This document shows, in pieces, positions 30,081-34,170 of a DNA stretch of 40,559 bases. Each line of letters begins with the position of its first letter. The stretch's first letter is position 1. The position numbers and the translations under genes were made by a program. The notes beneath the pieces were generated by a model, which saw nothing but the letters and a program-made list of their open reading frames with translations, did not search any database and was not told the origin of the DNA. Source of the stretch: Chloroflexota bacterium (GTDB lineage Bacteria > Chloroflexota > Limnocylindria > Limnocylindrales > CSP1-4); contig PMYK01000033.1 of the NCBI GenBank assembly GCA_003171255.1, positions 1-40,559 on the forward strand, read 5' to 3'.

Positions 30081-31025
30081 TCACCCCACGGCCACGGCCT
30101 CGGGCTCGACGTCGAAGAGACCGGGCACGGACAGGTACCGCTCACCGGTGTCGTAGGTGAAGGCCAGAATGCGAGCCCCGTCCGCGATGTCGGGCAGCTT
30201 GTTCGCTACGGCGGCGAGGACCGCGCCGGACGAAACGCCGACGAGCAGGCCTTCCTCGCGAGCGAGACGCTGGGTGTACTTGAGGGCATCGGGGGCCGAG
30301 ACCTGGACGATGCCGTTGACCGCGGCGGCGTGGAAGTTGCCCGGCACAAAGCCGGCGCCGATGCCCTGGATCGGGTGCGGGCCCGCGGTTCCGCCGCTCA
30401 GCACGGGGGACAGTTCGGGCTCCACGGCAAAGACCTTGAGCTTTGGCCAGCGCGGTCGCAGGACCTCGCCGACCGCCGTGGCATGGCCGCCCGTGCCGAC
30501 GCCCGCAAAGATGTAGTCGAGGCCGTCCGGGAAGTCGCGGGCGATCTCCTCGGCCGTGGTCCGCTTGTGGGCCTCGACGTTCGCCGGGTTGTCGAACTGC
30601 ATCGGCAGCCAGGCGTTGGGGGTCGAGGCCACGATCTCACGGGCCTTGGCGATGGCACCCTTCATGCCGAGCTCGCGGGGCGTCAGCTCGAAGGTGGCGC
30701 CGTATGCAGCCATGAGCTTGCGTCGCTCGACAGAGAACGACTCGGGCATCACCAGGATCAATCTATAGCCCTTGACGGCTGCGACGAGAGCCAGGCCCAC
30801 GCCGGTGTTGCCGGATGTCGGCTCGACAATGATGCTGTCCGGCCGAAGGATGCCGCGCTTCTCGGCGTCTTCGATCATCGACAGGGCGATGCGGTCCTTG
30901 ATCGAGCCGCCCGGGTTCTGTCGTTCGAGCTTAACCCAGACCTCCACACGCGGGTCGAAGAGCTTGTTGATGCGAAGCTCGGTTGTGTTGCCGATGGTTT
31001 CGAGAATGCTGTTGGCCTTTGCCAT
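30081..31025 (-). CDS. cysK: Cysteine synthase A (O-acetylserine sulfhydrylase)
   Basis: 314 residues; the ATG has GGAGGAG upstream. PLP enzyme that makes cysteine from O-acetylserine and sulfide. The PLP lysine is K43 in [22 protein letters not shown] (residues 69-79) and [15 protein letters not shown] bind the cofactor phosphate and substrate, and [11 protein letters not shown] and [10 protein letters not shown] are typical later blocks. The opening [12 protein letters not shown] differs slightly from the usual IGNTPLVRL. It follows cysE by 68 bp, so the two probably form an operon and a cysteine synthase complex. Expression of the pair is probably set by the cysteine leader upstream of cysE. 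Confidence 0.96.
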
Positions 31026-31093: not shown

Positions 31094-31984
31094 CTATATG
31101 ACCCAGTCGAGCGTGTCGGCTTCGTCTCGGCCCTGCCGGACATGGACTTCGCTGCGCTGGTAAACGATGGAATTGGACGGGACACTCGAGGTGATCCAGG
31201 TATTGCCGCCGATCACGCTGCCCCGACCGATGACGGTCTCGCCGCCGAGGATCGTGGCGTTGGCGTAGATCACCACGTCGTTTGCGATGGTCGGATGACG
31301 CCTCGTCGAAGCGAGCGACTTGGTCACGGAGAGCGCGCCGAGGGTCACGCCCTGGTAGAGCTTCACGTTGTTGCCGATCACCGCGGTCTCGCCGACGACG
31401 ATGCCGGTGCCGTGGTCGATGATGAAGGGGTGGCCCACAGTCGCCCCGGGGTGGATGTCGATGCCCGTTCGCTCATGAGCCCACTCGGTCAGCACGCGCG
31501 GCAGGATTGGCACGCCAAGCTCGCGGAAGCGGTGGGCGATGCGATGGACGGCGATGGCCAGGAACCCTGGGTATGCCACGATTACCTCGTCGACGCTCTC
31601 GGCCGCGGGGTCGCCGCGCTCGATTGCGGTGGCGTCGATCATCAACTGGCGGTGGATCTCAGGTAGTGACTGGAAGAACGCGGCGGCGATCGCGGCGGGA
31701 TCCTCGATATCGTCCTCGAGTGGCCGCAGCAGGGCTCGAAGCTCGGCCGCCGACGCGTCGAGCGCGTCGCGCACCTCGCCCGCCGTGGCGTATGTCTGCT
31801 CGGCGGCCTGCGGGAAGAGCGTGTCGATCAGGGCACGGATCCACGCCGCAACGCGTGCCTTGGCCAACCGCTTGCCACCGTCCTCGCCCAGGACGTTGTG
31901 GAGACGCGTCGCCAGGCCGTCGAGCGGATCGCTCGGTGCGTGACCGGCCTTCTGGGTCTTGATCGATCGAAGCGGGAGAGCCAT
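31094..31984 (-). CDS. cysE: Serine O-acetyltransferase
   Basis: 297 residues from ATG 31984 (GAGG upstream); the frame is open further up but runs into the leader's terminator. It acetylates serine with acetyl-CoA, the first step of cysteine synthesis. The N-terminal helical domain ([54 protein letters not shown]) is of the EpsC/SAT type. The C-terminal left-handed beta-helix carries the hexapeptide repeats and catalytic residues ([56 protein letters not shown]). It ends in LDWVI; the C-terminal Ile is the residue that in other SATs inserts into the CysK active site. Confidence 0.95.
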
Positions 31985-32110
31985 TTCTGCCTCTGAGCTG
32001 GGGCCGAGAGGGAGCGGGCCGTGGGGCGCCGGCTGCTCCTGGCAAGGGTTCGGGAGCGGGCGCGCTCGGAAGCGCGCTTTGCTGTGTTGCGCGGCGCGTC
32101 CGGTGGGAGG

Positions 32111-32147
32111 AAACAAGAAAGCCGCGGTTCCTGACTAGGACCGCGGC
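32111..32147 (-). terminator. Attenuator terminator in the cysE-cysK leader
   Basis: On the minus strand GCCGCGGT (32147-32140) and ACCGCGGC (32128-32121) form an 8-bp stem extended by CCT/AGG across one bulged A, with a 4-nt loop. It is immediately followed by TTTCTTGTTT (32120-32111), the best U-run in the window. It lies between the cysteine-rich leader peptide and cysE with no gene ending just before it, so it serves as an attenuator and not as an end-of-gene terminator. Confidence 0.85.
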
Positions 32148-32195
32148 CCCTGGAGCGACTCGGCGAGCTCCCGGCGGGGAGCGCGATACAGCCGG

Positions 32196-32252
32196 CTACC
32201 TCCTGCGGCGGGGCCGCCGGGGACAGAAGCAAGCGAAATCGCACGAGTTCAT
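32196..32252 (-). CDS. Cysteine-rich leader peptide of the cysE-cysK operon (18 aa)
   Basis: ATG at 32252-32250, stop TAG at 32198-32196; sequence MNSCDFACFCPRRPRRRR, with Cys at positions 4, 8 and 10. Its position just upstream of a terminator and the cysteine biosynthetic genes is that of a classic attenuation leader. Segment CCCGGCGG (32221-32214) can pair with CCGCCGGG (32177-32170). The overlapping segment GCGGCCCC (32217-32210) can instead pair with GGGGCCGC (32150-32143), which includes the 5' arm of the terminator. Stalling of a ribosome at early Cys codons would leave the second segment free to block the terminator. No ribosome binding site is seen; the promoter geometry suggests a leaderless start. 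Confidence 0.8.
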   Translation of the reverse strand: MNSCDFACFCPRRPRRRR

Positions 32253-32258
32253 TGGTGA

Positions 32259-32288
32259 ATCATGCCTGTAGCCAGGTGGACTCGTCAA
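32259..32288 (-). promoter_or_regulatory. Promoter of the cys leader operon
   Basis: On the minus strand TTGACG (32288-32283) is an almost consensus -35. An 18-bp spacer separates it from CATGAT (32264-32259) as -10. Six bases then separate the -10 from the leader ATG at 32252, so transcription should start on or next to that codon. Confidence 0.6.
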
Positions 32289-32483
32289 GGCCGGGGCTTT
32301 GGCGCGGCTTCTCGGCTCGCGGCGCGCGACGCGAGCAGCGCAACCATCCAGGCAATCCACGCCCCCGGGACTCCCACAACGCTCTCCACGCCGCGGTGGG
32401 CCCGACCTGCCGTTGTCGTGATAACTTGGTCGCGAGCCGGCGTTCTCATGAGCAGCCGGCACACGGGACACGGGGAGGTCTGA

Positions 32484-33263
32484 ATGGTCCGGTTCGTCCA
32501 GGGGCAAGGCCGCGGCTTGCTCGTCCTGTCGGCCGTCATCGCGGTTGCCCTGGCCGGTTGCTCCGGCGGCTCCGCCACGGTGGCGCCAAGCGGCACCGGC
32601 GCTACGGGGGCGACCGGCGCCCCGACCGACAGCACCCAGCCGGCGAGCGTGGGTCTCGGCGGAGCGGCAAGCGCCCTCTCGGCGCTGGACAGCTACAAGT
32701 ACACCATGACCCTGGTCGGTGGCTCTGTTGTCACCCAGATCGAGATGCTCCCCGGCGTGTCGATCTCGGACCCGAACACCCCCGTCACGATCAAGGGCAC
32801 CGTGGTCAACCAGCCCGACAAGGGCGTCGACATCAAGATCGCCGACTTCCACATGATCGCGATCGGCGGCTTCGACTACTTCGACACCGGCGCCGGCTTC
32901 ACCCAGGCCTCTGACACCGGCCTCGTCGACACGCTCCTGCCGGTCCAGGCGTTCTCCACGGCAATCGACCCGACCGCAGTGTCCGGCTACGACAAGATCG
33001 GGACCGAGTCCAAGAACGGTGTGCAGGCCGATCACTACCAGGCCTCGAAATCGGCTCTCGGATACCTGGCATCGATCGCCGGAGTGGAGGGCACGTGGAC
33101 CTCTGACGTCTGGGTTGCCACGGATGGCGGCTATCCGGTGAGCATGGCTGTCGTGGCCAAAGCCAGCGACAACACCATCGCCTACGAGATCCTGTTCGAC
33201 ATCACCGCCATCAACGCCGCCTCGAACAACGTGGCCGCCCCCACCAACGTGACGGGCGCGTAG
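32484..33263 (+). CDS. LppX/LprG-like lipoprotein, paralog 1
   Basis: 259 residues from ATG 32484 with GGGGAGG upstream. The signal peptide ends at the lipobox VALAGC. A Gly/Ala/Thr linker follows, then a domain of about 200 residues beginning ALSALDSYKYTMTLVGG and containing GTVVNQPDKG, FHMIAIGGFDYFDT, GTESKNGVQADHYQ, SDVWVATDGGYPVSMAVVA and FDITAINAASNNVAAPTNV. The layout resembles the LolA/LppX-type half-barrel lipoproteins that bind a lipid or other hydrophobic ligand at the cell surface. That assignment rests on layout alone. Two paralogs lie downstream (33397-34170 and 37324-38043). Confidence 0.82.
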   Translation: MVRFVQGQGRGLLVLSAVIAVALAGCSGGSATVAPSGTGATGATGAPTDSTQPASVGLGGAASALSALDSYKYTMTLVGGSVVTQIEMLPGVSISDPNTPVTIKGTVVNQPDKGVDIKIADFHMIAIGGFDYFDTGAGFTQASDTGLVDTLLPVQAFSTAIDPTAVSGYDKIGTESKNGVQADHYQASKSALGYLASIAGVEGTWTSDVWVATDGGYPVSMAVVAKASDNTIAYEILFDITAINAASNNVAAPTNVTGA

Positions 33264-33396: not shown

Positions 33397-34170
33397 GTGG
33401 TTACGTCTCAGCGATCGATTCGTGGTCTCGTCGCAATAGGTCTGGCCGTGGGGCTCGTGGTGGCCGCGTGCGGCGGCTCGACCTCGACCTTGAACCCCTT
33501 CAACCTGCCCGGCGGAAACACCGGCGCGGGCACCAGCAATGCGCCGGGCGGCGGCAGCTCGCTCACCTCGGGCCTGTCGTCCAACCTCGACCAGCTGGAC
33601 AGCTACCAATTCACTGAGTCCATCGGCGGCTCGACGTTGGGCGGAGCGGCTTCGCCCGGCGAAAGCGCATCGACCTTCCTCATCACCGGAACGGTCATCA
33701 ACAAGCCCACCAAGGCGATCTTGGTTAACGACCTTGGCGTGCAGTTCATCGTGATCGGCAATGAGGCCTGGAGCTCCTTCGACGGCAGCACCTGGTACAC
33801 CAGTAGTCCGACGGACACGAGCCTGGCCAATCTTCTGCCCGGTCATGACTACTCGACCTGGTTCGATTCCAACTCGACCGGCTTCAGCGTTGTTGGCGAC
33901 GAGTCGAAGAACGGCGTCCAGTGCGTCCACTACAAGGGCAGCGACTCGCTTGGCAGCCTCTACTCCGGCATGACCGGAGTCTCGGCCAACTTCCAGGCCG
34001 ATCTCTGGATCTCCAAGGATGGCAACTACCCGGTGAGCGGCATCTACGGCTTCTTCGCGACGTCCGGCGGAGAGGGCGGAAGCTTTGGCTATCGCTTCGA
34101 CGTCACCCATATCAATGACGCGAGCAACGCGGTGACCCCGCCCACGAACGTCGTCGCCCTCCCGAGCTGA
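33397..34170 (+). CDS. LppX/LprG-like lipoprotein, paralog 2
   Basis: 257 residues from GTG 33397 (CGGAGGATAGCCG upstream). The signal peptide ends in the lipobox VVAAC. The Gly/Asn/Ser linker is followed by a domain with the same order of motifs as paralog 1: NLDQLDSYQFTESIGG, GTVINKPTKA, VQFIVIGNEAWSSFDGSTW, GDESKNGVQCVHYKG, ADLWISKDGNYPVSGIYGF and FDVTHINDASNAVTPPTNV. Compared with paralog 1 it has an extra segment, GSTWYTSSPTDTSLANLL, and a GGEGGS loop near the end. Probably extracytoplasmic ligand binding. A strong terminator follows 40 bp after the stop. Confidence 0.82.
   Translation: MVTSQRSIRGLVAIGLAVGLVVAACGGSTSTLNPFNLPGGNTGAGTSNAPGGGSSLTSGLSSNLDQLDSYQFTESIGGSTLGGAASPGESASTFLITGTVINKPTKAILVNDLGVQFIVIGNEAWSSFDGSTWYTSSPTDTSLANLLPGHDYSTWFDSNSTGFSVVGDESKNGVQCVHYKGSDSLGSLYSGMTGVSANFQADLWISKDGNYPVSGIYGFFATSGGEGGSFGYRFDVTHINDASNAVTPPTNVVALPS

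Follow-up and report, generated by a model that had tools for sequence, protein, structure and literature searches.

A predicted Cys-tRNA-sensing attenuator ahead of cysE-cysK in Chloroflexota and a cassette family joining Cys, Met and Lys codons to one switch

Classical ribosome-mediated attenuators are known for the amino-acid operons trp, his and leu. Like the locus described in this work, they consist of a leader peptide with regulatory codons and of an antiterminator that competes with an intrinsic terminator; however, the cassette analysed here is predicted to be leaderless, the 5' arm of its antiterminator is located inside the leader ORF, and the same cassette is shared by Cys, Met and Lys leaders. 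According to the relevant passage of a 2010 survey, leader-peptide systems were known only in Proteobacteria and Actinobacteria, to which the Bacilli were then added (PMC2965389). In the open-access literature searched, which takes in few subscription journals, and with the matches judged by title, no leader-peptide attenuation was found for Chloroflexi or Chloroflexota, and neither were Lys and Met leaders of such a cassette.

Leaderless polycysteine sORFs have been described in mycobacteria (Canestrari et al. 2020, as cited in PMC9031893, PMC9094748 and PMC13236596). By the description of the citing papers they are similar to the present locus, being short leaderless ORFs with Cys codons ahead of cysteine or sulfur genes, but their Cys codons are contiguous and their effect is on translation, whereas a Cys-x-Cys motif and a covarying terminator are found here. 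Actinobacterial Cys leader peptides are also encoded by short ORFs with Cys codons ahead of cys operons; on the other hand, the corresponding passages present them as devoid of obvious terminators and report no conserved terminator hairpin (PMC1262725). In Rhodobacterales, uORFC-8-2 is located ahead of cysS and combines two Cys codons in a uORF with a terminator placed after it (PMC8632094). It is set apart by that description: its Cys codons are in tandem and it belongs to cysS of Rhodobacterales, while the locus studied here has Cys-x-Cys and cysE. Streptomyces lividans has leaderless leader peptides, e.g. metL and leuL2, and metL ends in a Cys/Met/Arg-rich stretch, but a typical terminator is reported to be absent from metL (PMC8079986). 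The mycobacterial and Streptomyces leaders, as their sources portray them, are precedents for a leaderless regulatory leader.

The locus is located on the minus strand of a stretch of 40,559 nucleotides (the window) from a genome assembly of 2.56 Mb in 55 contigs. Judging from sequence, it is highly probable that this locus is a ribosome-mediated transcription attenuator which senses charged tRNA-Cys and controls cysE-cysK. The near-consensus promoter proposed by an earlier sequence-only reading was recovered by a motif scan: a -35 element TTGACG (32288-32283) is followed, after an 18-nt spacer, by a -10 element CATGAT (32264-32259). It agrees with the consensus at 9 of 12 positions and is the sole such site in 31500-33000 (mean of shuffles 0.0, sd 0.1). 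The ATG of the leader ORF, at 32252, is found 6 nt past the -10 element and coincides with the predicted +1. This ORF (32252-32196) has 18 codons ahead of its stop, encodes MNSCDFACFCPRRPRRRR and is predicted to be leaderless; as had been read, it contains three Cys codons (TGC, TGC and TGT). Two of them are the conserved sensor codons, Cys8 (TGC, 32229-32231) and Cys10 (TGT, 32223-32225), which lie 14 and 8 nt, respectively, from the octamer GCGGCCCC (32217-32210), the putative 5' arm of the antiterminator, itself within the leader ORF. Its 3' partner, GGGGCCGC (32150-32143), overlaps the 5' arm of the intrinsic terminator.

The terminator, delimited by folding and covariation, is a bulged stem-loop (32121-32147) directly followed by the U-tract TTTCTTGTTT (32120-32111). 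Stem and U-tract together reach -21.9 kcal/mol (z -3.3), a value equalled by none of 200 shuffles, and the site ranks first of the five detected by a hairpin-plus-T scan of both strands; the earlier reading had taken its U-run as the best of the window. A simple terminator scanner reported no site in 31500-33000, probably because the stem is bulged. The stability of the whole leader is not unusual compared with shuffles (z -1.39). Between the octamers there are a hairpin with conserved pairing in the genus (GCTCCC/GGGAGC, 32167-32182) and a CGAGT stretch (32158-32162), which is predicted to pair with ACTCG at the leader start (32248-32244) when the ribosome is absent. Downstream of the terminator, a block conserved across the genus, CCTCCCACCGGACGCGCCGC (32091-32110), precedes the genes cysE (serine O-acetyltransferase family, 31094-31984) and cysK (cysteine synthase A, 30081-31025). 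The proposed gene pair stands for cysK, which is above the NCBIfam cut-off; cysE is the best NCBIfam match of the first downstream protein (E 8e-46), with a score below the equivalog cut-off. All 16 of the nearest named relatives of this CysE, at 75-90% identity, come from Chloroflexi MAGs, and the names of 14 mark them as fen isolates. On the plus strand, the neighbouring genes at 32484-33263 and 33397-34170 look by eye like paralogous lipoproteins, with a Cys after a signal-like stretch.

Conservation was analysed in 21 genomes of the same genus, the source genome included, of which 20 gave a cysE match; the counts of 20 given below include the window. In the remaining genome (G052) the leader is present and the contig ends before any gene. 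The promoter is kept as TTGAC-N18-CATGAT in 19 members and TTGAC-N18-CATCAT in one, and the distance from the -10 element to the start codon is exactly 6 nt in 20/20. The start codon is ATG in 15 and GTG in five, with no other type, and it is on this constant spacing and these start codons that the leaderless prediction is based. Cys-x-Cys at codons 8 and 10 is present in all 20 leaders, while the first Cys codon of the window (codon 4) is Cys only there and in one other member and is probably incidental. The C-terminal PRR(x)PRRRR, an Arg-rich end, is nearly invariant, and the only indel inside the leaders is a 3-nt CGG insertion, found in five sequences. Directly after cysE, cysK is found in 16 members; in the other four the sequence stretch is too short. 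The Cys-codon attenuator reading is in this way supported by codons, frame, spacing and octamer pairing, all of them conserved throughout the set of 20.

The pairing of GCGGCCCC with GGGGCCGC holds in 159 of 160 cells (20 members by eight positions), and the octamers are so nearly invariant that no covariation is seen within the genus. Of the two mutually exclusive pairings that the sequence-only reading had drawn, both exist in the window and only this one is conserved: the other, between CCCGGCGG and 32170-32177, fails in the middle of the helix in most relatives and is probably incidental. The alignment of cysE upstream regions that had been suggested likewise gave Cys-x-Cys and octamers kept together, without covariation of the octamers in the genus. 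The terminator is paired in 93.1% of cells, with two pairs changed on both sides, and the intervening hairpin in 97% of cells over five pairs, one of them double-changed in two sequences. Several other features of these leaders were recorded. A Shine-Dalgarno-like GGAGG (32196-32204, minus strand) is found just ahead of the leader stop in 19/20 genus leaders, and GAGG-like stretches recur in the Met and Lys leaders described below. By eye, a CTCCG...GCCGCC block resembling the post-terminator block is located after many metY terminators. A pairing of the leader GGAGG/GCGGC with the post-terminator block is suggestive, but its duplex energies were no better than those of shuffles (mean z 0.13, -0.03 and 0.27 by class).

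From this anatomy we infer a mechanism in which transcription would start at or adjoining the leader start codon and termination would respond to cysteine through the stalling of the ribosome. When Cys-tRNA is scarce, the ribosome would halt at Cys-x-Cys, best at codon 8, and would leave GCGGCCCC just past its edge, free for GGGGCCGC. This pairing would capture the 5' arm of the terminator, and the RNA polymerase would read into cysE-cysK. When cysteine is plentiful, the ribosome would run on and cover the octamer, so that the terminator would form. It would also form when no ribosome is present, the octamer of the cysE leader then being predicted mostly in other pairings.

The folding of the 20 genus leaders was calculated from the predicted +1, with the nucleotides covered by the ribosome held unpaired (from 15 nt upstream to 12 nt downstream of the first nucleotide of the A-site codon); the nascent RNA was taken as the transcript before the 3' arm of the terminator. 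In this nascent RNA the mean probability of the antiterminator is 0.08 for ribosome-free RNA, 0.94 when Cys8 is in the A-site (above 0.5 in 19/20 leaders), 0.20 at Cys10 and at most 0.01 at the codons beyond. With two alternative footprint sizes the value at Cys8 is still 0.94, and that at Cys10 is 0.06 and 0.25. The three codons ahead of Cys8 are nearly as favourable (0.82-0.92), the sharp loss occurring only beyond Cys8. Stopping at Cys10, 8 nt away, the ribosome is predicted to mask the octamer in part; even so, this codon is conserved to the same degree as Cys8. At full-length equilibrium the terminator is always favoured (0.89-0.93, compared with at most 0.05 for the antiterminator), and antitermination must therefore win kinetically, during transcription.

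The switch is not exclusive to cysE. A covariance model (R1) built from the 20 genus leaders, Cys codons included, matched in 67 of 107 family genomes, many with a second copy that has the same octamer and terminator and other codons: Met-Met-x-Met or Met-Cys-Met, and Lys-Pro-Lys-x-Lys or Lys-Lys-Lys. A second model (R2), made from 37 sequences (second copies and cysE leaders), starts right after the last sensor codon, or one codon later in leaders with the CGG insertion, and hence excludes the sensor. At E up to 0.01 it matched in 91 of the 177 genomes that represent the class, some matches being marginal. Among 400 genomes sampled over the phylum 33 match, and the four outside the class are all marginal (E 0.0019 to 0.0092), about the chance level at the cut-off. 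The source genome has three clear R2 matches: a Met leader before metY (C50, L142), the Cys leader of cysE in the window and a Lys leader before dapB-dapA (C22, L204). The metY leaders span 13 genera of two families, and the dapB leaders nine genera.

The aligned set comprised 100 R2 matches at 99 selected loci, of which R1 had been the first to detect 60 and R2 the other 39; the loci inspected (40+40) are a chosen part of the R1 and R2 matches, and L158 and L205, which are weak and have no octamer core, were left out of the 99. Three pairs among the 100 matches are identical in sequence. The leaders of L168 and L169 are identical although assigned to different genera, perhaps owing to a misbinned contig, and in five metY leaders (L211, L213, L215, L216 and L219) an inverted repeat of the GAGCGAAAGCAAGCTTTCGC type is inserted into the terminator loop. 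The idea that cysE of other genera shares the switch was dropped: among 10 loci inspected, of about 25 matches, four have a Cys-x-Cys sORF without the switch and six have none by the filter. The four sORFs (L025, L026, L028 and L031; e.g. MASQRLTCACPGRH, followed by a stop) look leaderless.

A BLAST comparison with five reference proteins was used to assign the downstream genes, examples being named with NCBIfam and Pfam. This placed 88 of the 100 matches in four gene classes, all 88 with fitting sensor codons; 87 of the genes were verified, and L125, whose contig ends before the gene, was placed in the cysE class by leader similarity. In that class 21/21 leaders have at least two Cys codons within the six codons before the switch, 16 of them at 14 and 8 nt and five shifted one codon by the CGG insertion. 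The four leaders of the cysK/CBS-like class have Cys at both places. Met is found at 8 nt in 44/44 leaders of the metY class and at 14 nt in 42/44, with a Cys between the Mets in 22 and two Cys within six codons in three; Lys occupies both places in the 19 leaders of the dapB class. At the 14- and 8-nt places no class carries either of the other two amino acids. The Cys leaders found by R1 are not independent evidence, since that model contains the Cys codons, whereas the Met and Lys leaders are. The example metY product is a homocysteine synthase above the cut-off, the example DapB is just below its NCBIfam cut-off and above that of Pfam, and the example cysK-like product is cystathionine beta-synthase-like, just below the cut-off.

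As a group, the 12 remaining genes match sulfur or Met metabolism only partially. One is a sulfite/nitrite reductase-like gene whose leader has Cys and Met codons; another belongs to the carbonic-anhydrase family (Pfam, L177), and three more resemble it by eye. A Met-Cys-Met leader lies about 1 kb ahead of the gene for an SsuA-like sulfonate-binding protein, and a leader with Met codons precedes a threonine synthase gene (L234). Of the others, two are OsmC-like, one is AhpD/CMD-like, one is weakly acyl-CoA-dehydrogenase-like and one is unassigned. The two OsmC-like loci (L212 and L220) have cassette-like leaders in which a partner octamer and a clear U-tract are missing; these may have decayed or may work in another way. 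The leaders of L218 and L234 depart from the usual frame. A concern of the sequence-only reading had been homologous leaders that lack Cys codons and keep the terminator. They were encountered only with codons fitting another pathway (Met for metY, Lys for dapB), 12 of the 100 matches being without class; as such leaders carry codons matching their own downstream pathway, the attenuator idea is strengthened. In this bacterial class the same switch would operate ahead of metY with Met codons and ahead of dapBA with Lys codons. It seems likely that copies of a single ancestral cassette were placed ahead of several operons and that the exchange of two codons changed their specificity, which would yield modular leaderless Cys, Met and Lys sensors with one shared switch.

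Terminator and antiterminator each show compensatory changes across the cassette family. In 37 family sequences, seven of the nine terminator pairs have double changes, a level reached in none of 500 shuffles. Over the 100 matches, the best partner window for the octamer gives 8/8 pairs in 94, seven in four and six in two, counts that are biased upward because partners were chosen as best match; the best other window of the same stretch gives eight pairs in two, seven in nine and fewer in 89 (range over the remaining 98, 4-7). The last octamer pair (leader-partner) is C-G in 78 matches, T-A in seven, T-G in nine and C-A in one, two further T-G occur in sequences without a real partner, and T-A is also seen once at the adjacent pair. 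The compensation at the last pair gives a Fisher p of 7.5e-6, calculated ignoring relatedness (three pairs of matches are identical) and omitting C-C, T-C and A-A (one each) as well as L212 and L220. As this last position lies outside the modelled terminator stem, its compensation is an argument for the antiterminator as such.

Folding of the other classes used the same mask, 43 of the 44 metY loci (one was dropped) and an RNA start 75 nt before the octamer, an arbitrary choice that lowers the cysE peak to 0.59. The highest mean probability of the antiterminator at upstream codons is predicted at 14 nt in every class (cysE 0.59, metY 0.62, dapB 0.78 and cysK-like 0.95), and it falls to 0.00-0.02 in all four with the ribosome at 8 nt. 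With no ribosome the values are 0.09, 0.25, 0.38 and 0.42, respectively. When the A-site is placed 25 nt beyond the beginning of the octamer, they rise again to 0.28, 0.73, 0.73 and 0.68, the metY value exceeding its own upstream peak. As modelled, the high no-ribosome values and this rebound count against a clean switch in the metY, dapB and cysK-like classes.

Other explanations have to be weighed. The one that survives best, although we regard it as unlikely, is that the hairpin is not the decisive switch and that the sORF works through translational attenuation or Rho-dependent polarity, the mode of action proposed for Cys sORFs of mycobacteria. The mycobacterial leaders are described in the passages concerned as regulating downstream translation (PMC9031893, PMC13236596), the account of the Actinobacterial ones gives no obvious terminators (PMC1262725), and Cys-x-Cys sORFs without the switch precede cysE in four of the 10 upstream regions inspected in other genera. 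However, in the locus studied here both terminator stem and U-tract are kept, with covariation in the stem, the partner of the octamer is the terminator arm and not the ribosome site of cysE, and the U-tract ends 90-169 nt ahead of the cysE start in 19/20 genus members and 47 nt ahead in one.

Still less probable, to the point of being very doubtful, is a reading in which the sORF is incidental and the hairpin either terminates constitutively or belongs to a T-box or riboswitch. RNAs that sense tRNA do exist in the lineage, as indicated by T-box-like matches in 101 of 107 family genomes; all are below the Rfam cut-off, which suggests divergent T-boxes. In the window, on the contrary, Rfam at the gathering threshold gives two tRNA genes only, and between 31900 and 32400, at E up to 10, there is no T-box or riboswitch match at the leader and only two unrelated Rfam matches far below threshold, while a constitutive terminator is at odds with the agreement between sensor codons and pathway in every assigned leader. 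SAM riboswitches occur in 58 of the 107 family genomes (two in the genus, none in the source genome), and the lysine riboswitch in none of them, four control genomes being positive. Finally, the conserved peptide, Cys-x-Cys plus the nearly invariant Arg-rich tail, can hardly be credited with acting in trans or arresting the ribosome by its sequence, since its Arg and Pro codons are the octamer region, tails vary by class (RPRSAEDGV, RPCREARP) while octamer and codon distance are constant, and in L234 the octamer is read in a shifted frame and is still preceded, by our own reading, by two Met codons at 13 and 7 nt.

The Cys-tRNA-sensing attenuator thus remains the preferred reading, and its chief interest lies beyond the coordinates first given, in one switch that would serve several amino acids; what would be new is a modular, apparently leaderless form of ribosome-mediated attenuation in Chloroflexota. 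If this is true, leader-peptide attenuation would be added to this phylum, attenuation with a leaderless leader would be suggested, and the cassette would be a rare case of sensor and switch separable by evolution. The Lys leaders precede a set of genes that is under lysine-riboswitch control in many other bacteria. Under the same condition, the cassette would predict the codon distance needed by a stalled ribosome and would constitute a natural programmable attenuator.
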